From positions 1 through 34,371 of the forward strand of contig CALRCM010000007.1 in the NCBI GenBank assembly GCA_943354555.1: 34,371 bases of DNA, read 5' to 3'. The translations under genes were made by a program, and so were the position numbers. Below the pieces are notes generated by a model, which saw nothing but the letters and a program-made list of their open reading frames with translations, did no database searches and was not told the origin of the DNA. The stretch is from Candidatus Peribacteria bacterium. Its GTDB lineage: Bacteria > Patescibacteriota > Gracilibacteria > Peribacterales > Peribacteraceae. Shown here in pieces: positions 109-34,371 of the stretch. Each line of letters opens with the position of its first letter. The first letter of the stretch is position 1.

Positions 109-122
109 TGTACGTTTGTACA
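109..122. promoter_or_regulatory. Inverted repeat TGTAC-N4-GTACA, operator-like
   Basis: TGTACgtttGTACA is a perfect 5-bp dyad with a 4-nt spacer, 36 bp before the ComEC-type gene. The same architecture occurs only once more that I could find, upstream of ssb at 34111-34126. That suggests a dimeric repressor site. LexA operators of some phyla share this size and symmetry, but assignment to LexA is inference. Confidence 0.4.
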
Positions 123-9306: not shown

Positions 9307-9690
9307 ATGACGGAAGATGAAGTTATTGCACATTGGCGGAAAGGATCTTCAAACGAGGTGCAATCTGCAAAGTTGCTCTGTGCCGGAGGGCAGTACGCTG
9401 GTGCGCTTTTTCACTGCCATCTCGCTGTAGAAAAAGCTCTAAAAGCTCTCTATATGGAACATCGTAATAAAGAAGCCCCCCTCACACATGACTTGCTTCA
9501 GATTGCCTTGCAAATAGAGCGACCATGGACGGAAGCAGATAAGAAACTTTTTGCGGATCTTACAGGCTACGCGGTTGCTGCGCGGTACGATGATCCATTA
9601 TGGGCCGAGAGAGAGGCGACAGTCATAAATGTCCATCGATGGATGGAGCGCATCGAATCACTTCTTTCCACATTTTTTCATGCAGCGTAG
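9307..9690 (+). CDS. HEPN-domain protein (toxin-like partner of MNT)
   Basis: A 127-aa all-helical HEPN protein (PF05168-like). Visible marks are the repeated-helix core QSAKLLCAGGQYAGALFHCH, AVEKALKALYMEH, LTHDLLQIALQ and YAVAARYDDP. In HEPN/MNT modules the HEPN member is usually the toxin, often an RNase. The canonical RX4-6H motif is not clear here (RNKEAPLTH has seven residues between R and H), so nuclease activity is uncertain. It overlaps the next gene by 11 bp, supporting a two-gene operon. The ATG lies just after a -10 box, so the mRNA may be leaderless. Confidence 0.85.
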   Translation: MTEDEVIAHWRKGSSNEVQSAKLLCAGGQYAGALFHCHLAVEKALKALYMEHRNKEAPLTHDLLQIALQIERPWTEADKKLFADLTGYAVAARYDDPLWAEREATVINVHRWMERIESLLSTFFHAA

Positions 9691-9991
9691 TGAGGGTCTA
9701 TCACTGGCTAAAAAATTCAAAGAGCTACTCATTGCTCGCGGGTACCCCATAGAGCGCGTCGTGCTCTATGGATCAGTAGCAAAGGGAACCGCTCGTGTAG
9801 ACAGTGATATCGATATCGCCGTAGTCACACATTCTTTCCTCCCATCACGCATTCGTGAAGGGGGGGATATTCTTCTTGCAAGCAAGGATATCGACTTACG
9901 CATTGAGACAGTGACGCTGCATCCAGAAGACTTCGCCCGCCCTTTTTTTACTCTTGCGCATGAGATTGAAACGACAGGAATAGAGGTTTGA
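9680..9991 (+). CDS. MNT-type nucleotidyltransferase (antitoxin-like)
   Basis: A 103-aa minimal nucleotidyltransferase. The motif VVLYGSVAKGTARVDSDIDIAVV carries the GSx..G and DxD signature of the polymerase-beta fold, with a further catalytic-type Asp in KDIDLRIETV. In the best-studied HEPN/MNT pairs the MNT protein neutralises HEPN by adding AMP. I start it at the ATG at 9680 (MQRSEGLSLAKKF), which overlaps the HEPN gene end; the ORF track extends further upstream with an unlikely Phe/His-rich N-terminus. It could also be a stand-alone stabilisation module. Confidence 0.85.
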   Translation: MQRSEGLSLAKKFKELLIARGYPIERVVLYGSVAKGTARVDSDIDIAVVTHSFLPSRIREGGDILLASKDIDLRIETVTLHPEDFARPFFTLAHEIETTGIEV

Positions 9992-34110: not shown

Positions 34111-34126
34111 GTGTACGAATGTACAC
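34111..34126. promoter_or_regulatory. Palindrome GTGTAC-N4-GTACAC upstream of ssb, operator-like
   Basis: A 6-bp perfect dyad with a 4-nt spacer (GAAT), 60 bp before the ssb start and next to a possible -35. The core matches the site at 109-122. ssb belongs to the SOS regulon in many bacteria, which is why a LexA-type site is a reasonable hypothesis; the regulator itself is not in the window. Confidence 0.5.
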
Positions 34127-34186: not shown

Positions 34187-34371
34187 ATGTTTTCTCTCAA
34201 TAGAGTCTCACTGATTGGTTACCAGACCCAGCCCGTTGAGCTTCGTCAGACACCTTCCGGTACTGCGGTTACCGATCTCAATATCGTTGTCCCAACAACA
34301 TTTTCTTCCGGAGCCGGAGAGCAGCTCACCGGCAAAGGATTTTTCACGGTGACAGTCTGGGGAGCGATGGC
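34187..34371 (+). CDS. ssb: Single-stranded DNA-binding protein, N-terminal part
   Basis: The ATG at 34187 opens a frame that runs to the window end (61 complete codons). The N-terminus MFSLNRVSLIGYQTQPVELR, then TPSGTAVTDLNIVV and GFFTVTVWGAMA match the OB-fold of bacterial SSB (compare MxLNKVxLIGxLxxDPELR, TPSGxxVxxFxxA, WxxxVxWGxxA). It binds single-stranded DNA in replication and repair. It is missing from the ORF track, perhaps because it is cut by the window edge. No SD. The upstream dyad suggests regulation. Confidence 0.93.
   Translation, partial: MFSLNRVSLIGYQTQPVELRQTPSGTAVTDLNIVVPTTFSSGAGEQLTGKGFFTVTVWGAM

Follow-up and report, generated by a model that had tools for sequence, protein, structure and literature searches.

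A probable LexA operator upstream of ssb in Candidatus Peribacteria recurs before DNA-uptake genes and tRNA-like RNA loci

A palindrome stands upstream of ssb in a genome of Candidatus Peribacteria (G000; 1.16 Mb, 93% complete), raising the question of whether it is a regulatory site and, if so, of which regulator and over which genes. The window analysed is the whole of contig 7 of this genome (34,371 nt), the end of which cuts ssb; the 61 amino acids that remain show 89% identity to the ssb product of a relative (G002). The initial annotation had described a perfect dyad 60 bp 5' of ssb with one further copy of its core in the window, and both statements are borne out: the dyad lies at 34111-34126, before an ATG at 34187, and the sole other exact TGTACN4GTACA is at 109-122 (Table 1). 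Three matches to this pattern with at most one mismatch are present in the window, a number reached in 0 of 100 shuffles. The second copy precedes a gene for a metallo-beta-lactamase-fold protein, and we infer that its product is probably a stand-alone ComEC-type (DNA-uptake) hydrolase.

Two other features were observed beside these. The intact SSB of a Peribacteria relative (L048 470-1430, minus strand) has 283 aa and reads as two OB-type halves. At 9307-9991 of the window, a HEPN-domain ORF adjoins a nucleotidyltransferase (MNT) ORF, as in a HEPN/MNT toxin-antitoxin pair.

Table 1. Positions of the predicted operators and of the genes and RNA loci associated with them (window coordinates, or locus handles with coordinates within the locus).
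Feature	Position	Strand	Remarks
LexA-type operator GTGTAC-GAAT-GTACAC	34111..34126	.	60 bp before ssb; kept in relatives
ssb, first 61 codons	34187..34369	+	Pfam SSB 5.7e-9
Second LexA-type operator TGTACGTTTGTACA	109..122	.	36 bp before ORF; position same in 5/5 genus genomes
Metallo-beta-lactamase-fold protein with N-terminal hydrophobic segment	159..992	+	Pfam Lactamase_B 2.9e-12
tRNA-like RNA and antisense modules	L009 1562-1631, L014 1373-1443	L014 -	often under LexA-type box
Further tRNA-like modules	L051, L059, L071, L090, L092, L098, L103, L064, L107-L116, L134-L164		
RAYT/Y1 transposase loci with box	L003, L021 (799-1401), L055, L072, L075, L094, L096	L021 -	LexA-type box
Small coiled-coil protein loci	L025 5783-6100, L047, L088, L101, L053, L046, L102		LexA-type box upstream

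A genome-wide pattern search found 16 exact TGTACN4GTACA sites in G000 and none for the reversed control pattern, where base composition would give about 1.07 (Poisson P ~5e-14), so the sites are not spread at random. The four other genomes of the genus hold 13, 13, 9 and 14 exact sites (reversed control 0-1) and other genera of the Peribacteria family hold 1-6 per genome; in genomes outside the family the count is no higher than that of the control. Promoter positions account for 15 of the 16 exact sites in G000, many of them about 36 bp before an ORF. At the end of contig 3, the sixteenth (G000:C3:192) forms part of a long perfect palindrome and may represent a hairpin of unrelated nature; in relatives, a few sites fall inside ORFs. 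One-mismatch matches on contigs 6, 14 and 17 of G000, which lie in ORFs or lack a fitting downstream gene, are probably due to chance. The predicted LexA operator of Candidatus Peribacteria very probably has the consensus GGTGTAC-N4-GTACACC, with TGTAC-N4-GTNCA as its family-wide form; the exact consensus drifts, since several genera hold only 1-6 exact sites. The long palindrome on contig 3 is adjoined by a formaldehyde-activating enzyme (Fae) gene (L026 120-843), which is unusual in a Patescibacterium and could be due to horizontal transfer or contamination.

The site before ssb is kept exactly in all five genomes of the genus. Of 30 ssb loci across the family, 23 have a box within 200 bp that departs from the motif at one position at most; its placement varies rather little between loci, and the chance of such a box is ~0.0055 per promoter; a combined probability over the ssb loci is not given because the genomes are related, and counts over relatives are to be read as non-independent samples. 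Three further ssb loci have a box with two mismatches, which in two of them is the symmetric variant TGGACGATCGTCCA, while no good box was found before ssb in G048, G049, G050 and G064 among the 30 family genomes.

The genes behind the boxes include the core of an SOS response. The lexA promoter contains two tandem boxes, one within and one just 3' of TTGACA-N18-TATNAT, and these are recognisable, with substitutions, upstream of most lexA genes among 16 Peribacteria relatives in which the flanking sequence differs. In 5/5 genus genomes lexA is directly followed by a Y-family polymerase gene (dinB), and in the same five genomes recA is preceded by two boxes 81-82 bp apart with one mismatch each. 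The LexA of G000 (L012, 212 aa) has LexA_DNA_bind (1e-10) and Peptidase_S24 (1.8e-30) domains. Its best solved relatives are the LexA structures 8s7g and 3k2z, in alignment with which it has the AAG (Ala-Gly) cleavage site, the GDSM serine and the TLKR lysine. Relatives of this LexA in named records assign the genome to Candidatus Peribacteria (Patescibacteria).

Exact sites in G000 precede lexA(-dinB), ssb, topA, dprA and the divergent comM/yraN pair (two sites), as well as genes for a ComF-like phosphoribosyltransferase (a tentative name from a weak Pfam match), the ComEC-type hydrolase, a Y1/REP-type (RAYT) transposase, an S23-type four-helix protein, a divergent NYN-domain/carA pair, a small coiled-coil protein and a small conserved ORF. 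Two tRNA-like loci likewise have an exact site in front of them. The exact site is present in all five genus genomes at comM, the metallo-beta-lactamase-fold hydrolase and RAYT, and in 4/5 at yraN.

Several of these families recur. In all five genus genomes, RAYT/Y1 (REP-associated) transposases have a LexA-type box ~35 bp upstream. Genes for small coiled-coil proteins ('APATKQDI...' and similar), several per genome, also recur behind such a box, and the one protein that was searched had no match in Pfam. A conserved ORF of 75-80 aa, possibly for a peptide that is induced by damage and acts in cell division or as a toxin, stands directly behind a box and is followed by a small membrane-protein ORF (L006 1501-1760, L076, L093, L065). 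Putative RmuC genes (L018, L095-L097, L070) and a neighbouring putative S15 gene are named here from a reading of their sequence.

The initial annotation had proposed that the dyad may be an SOS/LexA motif of this lineage and had named random distribution, absence of lexA and a lack of conservation at ssb in related genomes as grounds against it. Present results support the proposal, because the sites are enriched and located at lexA, recA and ssb, the ssb box is conserved across the family and the genome encodes a LexA with the residues for self-cleavage. The dyad is, with high confidence, a LexA operator (SOS box) of Candidatus Peribacteria, through which LexA would repress ssb and the rest of the regulon; the binding by LexA, the repression and the induction by damage are assigned by analogy with the LexA family. 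A LexA dimer would bind the two GTAC half-sites, separated by a 4-nt spacer, over or just beside the promoter and block transcription of ssb and the other regulon genes. Upon DNA damage, RecA filaments would trigger self-cleavage of LexA and release the regulon, which beyond repair would extend to dprA, comM, yraN, the comF-like gene, the ComEC-type hydrolase, topA, RAYT transposases and small-RNA pairs.

The box could instead belong to another dimeric repressor, such as an HTH competence or stress regulator, whose regulon incidentally includes lexA and recA. By number the targets are indeed mostly DNA-uptake genes and mobile or RNA elements rather than repair genes, but the two boxes straddling the lexA promoter across the family are the signature of LexA autoregulation, recA also has two boxes with dinB directly after lexA, and GTAC or GAAC halves with a 4-nt spacer are the LexA layout of Gram-positives and cyanobacteria, which makes another repressor quite improbable. 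A chance palindrome, or a terminator or hairpin repeat without regulatory function, would fit the one site in a long palindrome and the few intragenic sites of relatives but is hardly credible given 16 sites against about one expected, an empty reversed control and a position kept before ssb in 23/30 genomes.

LexA operators have the form GAAC-N4-GTTC in Gram-positives and RGTACNNNDGTWCB in cyanobacteria. The Peribacteria operator resembles both in its palindromic halves of 4-5 bp, its 4-nt spacer and its position before lexA, recA and ssb, and in its GTAC halves it comes near the cyanobacterial form. It differs from them in its stricter TGTAC/GTACA halves and in its targets, which are mostly DNA-uptake genes and small-RNA loci. 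SOS in Patescibacteria was reportedly studied by Sanchez-Osuna, Barbe and Erill in 2017 (Environ. Microbiol. 19:3465). That study is cited in PMC8565304 and PMC7739468, and the latter seems to place it among examples of LexA proteins that bind direct repeats. It concerns the same superphylum and regulator, but the Peribacteria site is a palindrome and not a direct repeat; the operator motif of Peribacteria may nevertheless already have been reported there. Within the incomplete set of literature searched, no relevant match was found for LexA in Peregrinibacteria or the candidate phyla radiation.

Several boxes stand before a 70-nt tRNA-like sequence instead of a protein gene. In the tRNA-like RNA the acceptor helix is 8 bp long with G3-U70 (read in 48/50 loci), and the terminal CCA is encoded. 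The T stem has 4 bp and a TTCGANT loop, the D-type hairpin has 3 bp, and the anticodon-like arm has 8 bp and a loop of 8 nt, mostly YYGNCAN or UUGAGAC. In a comparison of seven sequences, both partners vary at seven of the eight base pairs in this arm, and the covariation score is higher than in all 500 shuffles and all slid controls. Within 130 bp upstream, a LexA box with at most one mismatch was found at 25 of 30 loci of the family and at 0 of 20 loci outside it. A covariance model recovered more copies, from eight further genera within the family and from several other families of the class; copies are rare elsewhere in the phylum. At the L009 locus a 255-aa ORF was considered as the LexA target and rejected, the target being the tRNA-like RNA and its antisense partner.

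Known RNA families do not account for this sequence. Rfam returned only sub-threshold matches to tmRNA and mascRNA (RF00023, RF01684), with which it shares a reduced D arm, the GGGG...CUCCACCA acceptor, G3-U70 and the T arm. It is neither a normal nor a split tmRNA: it scores 18-31 bits where the gathering threshold is 47, is 70 nt long and has no tag reading frame, and a separate ordinary tmRNA scores above the cut-off in 8/10 genomes. It is also not a canonical tRNA, having a 3-bp D hairpin and an 8-nt loop in place of a full D arm and a 7-nt loop, and ARAGORN returned 'tRNA-???' or nothing for most copies.

At 47 of 50 tRNA-like loci an adjacent copy of the anticodon-like arm lies on the strand that gives a complementary RNA, so that two mutually complementary RNAs are read there from sequence alone. 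The copy is upstream and divergent in 19 loci, downstream and convergent in 22, upstream and codirectional in 5 and downstream and codirectional in 1, and in each arrangement the RNA read towards the terminator is the complement of the arm. Two extra loci from other parts of the phylum have exact complements of 16 and 17 nt, downstream and codirectional. By pairing energy, the arm of the cognate tRNA-like RNA was the best partner for the antisense at nine of the first ten loci; at the tenth (L098), an insert within the slice used for comparison displaced the pairing. A larger test over 50 loci, which covered all four orientations with cognate and non-cognate controls, placed the cognate arm first among 50 at nearly all loci having an antisense. 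The antisense usually starts 4-14 nt from a TATAAT-like box and is predicted to end at a terminator after 50-70 nt. The predicted pair is present in several families of the phylum, and a LexA box at it was found only in the Peribacteria family, where predicted LexA control, judged from the boxes, extends to pairs in at least six genera.

The complementary copies could alternatively be DNA repeats, left as scars of recombination or insertion, for example by RAYT transposases, with no RNA pair involved. This would suit the presence of RAYT transposases under the same boxes and of REP-like hairpins inserted in the tRNA-like genes L098 and L103, but it is unlikely given that the copy occurs in four arrangements, each giving an RNA complementary to the arm, and that a TATAAT-like -10 immediately precedes it, a perfect one in 23% of cases compared with 1.3% of shuffles, with a terminator after it. 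The two hairpin insertions, both in G004, share one insertion point in the 3' acceptor strand.

Complementarity kept across four gene arrangements points to pairing between two RNAs. These may, as a tentative proposal, form a new class of pair, in which an apparently alanine-chargeable tRNA-like RNA, induced through LexA along with the DNA-uptake genes, has a separate antisense and acts on translation when unpaired. An RNA-only toxin-antitoxin system in which the unpaired RNA interferes with translation is the leading reading of the predicted pair, possible rather than probable. Interference with translation is proposed because the RNA looks alanine-chargeable yet carries a non-alanine loop of 8 nt; it would act as a decoy for AlaRS, EF-Tu or the ribosome, or as a miscoding tRNA. 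A benign regulatory role, or one as an alanine donor outside translation, is also conceivable.

The E. coli tisB/istR locus is a type I toxin-antitoxin system in which the tisB RNA encodes a peptide. The Peribacteria pair is similar in that an RNA under LexA control (predicted here) can be divergent from an antisense with ~20 nt of complementarity, but its LexA-side RNA is tRNA-like and non-coding. Other toxin-antitoxin pairs composed of two RNAs include CreTA (PMC8501985, PMC10097628), in which CreA acts via CRISPR Cascade. As in CreTA, one putative RNA would be the toxin, acting on the tRNA pool or translation, and the other the antitoxin; unlike in CreTA, the partner is a directly complementary antisense RNA, here predicted from sequence. 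No relevant match to an RNA toxin of tRNA-like type was found in the incomplete literature set, and the pair appears to be new to Rfam and to the literature searched.

The coupling of the box to uptake genes suggests DNA uptake by damaged cells. Helicobacter pylori is not known to have a LexA. Damage and DNA-uptake genes are coupled in H. pylori (PMC2912397) and in Streptococcus pneumoniae (PMC8394987), the latter without an equivalent of SOS. Unlike in the damage-induced competence of these species, the link in Peribacteria would be LexA itself. If the LexA reading is true, a damage repressor is linked directly to DNA uptake, and a branch of the candidate phyla radiation for which metagenomes are almost the only source of knowledge gains a testable SOS regulon, together with a conserved RNA pair without an Rfam family, the function of which is probably on translation and can be tested in E. 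coli.
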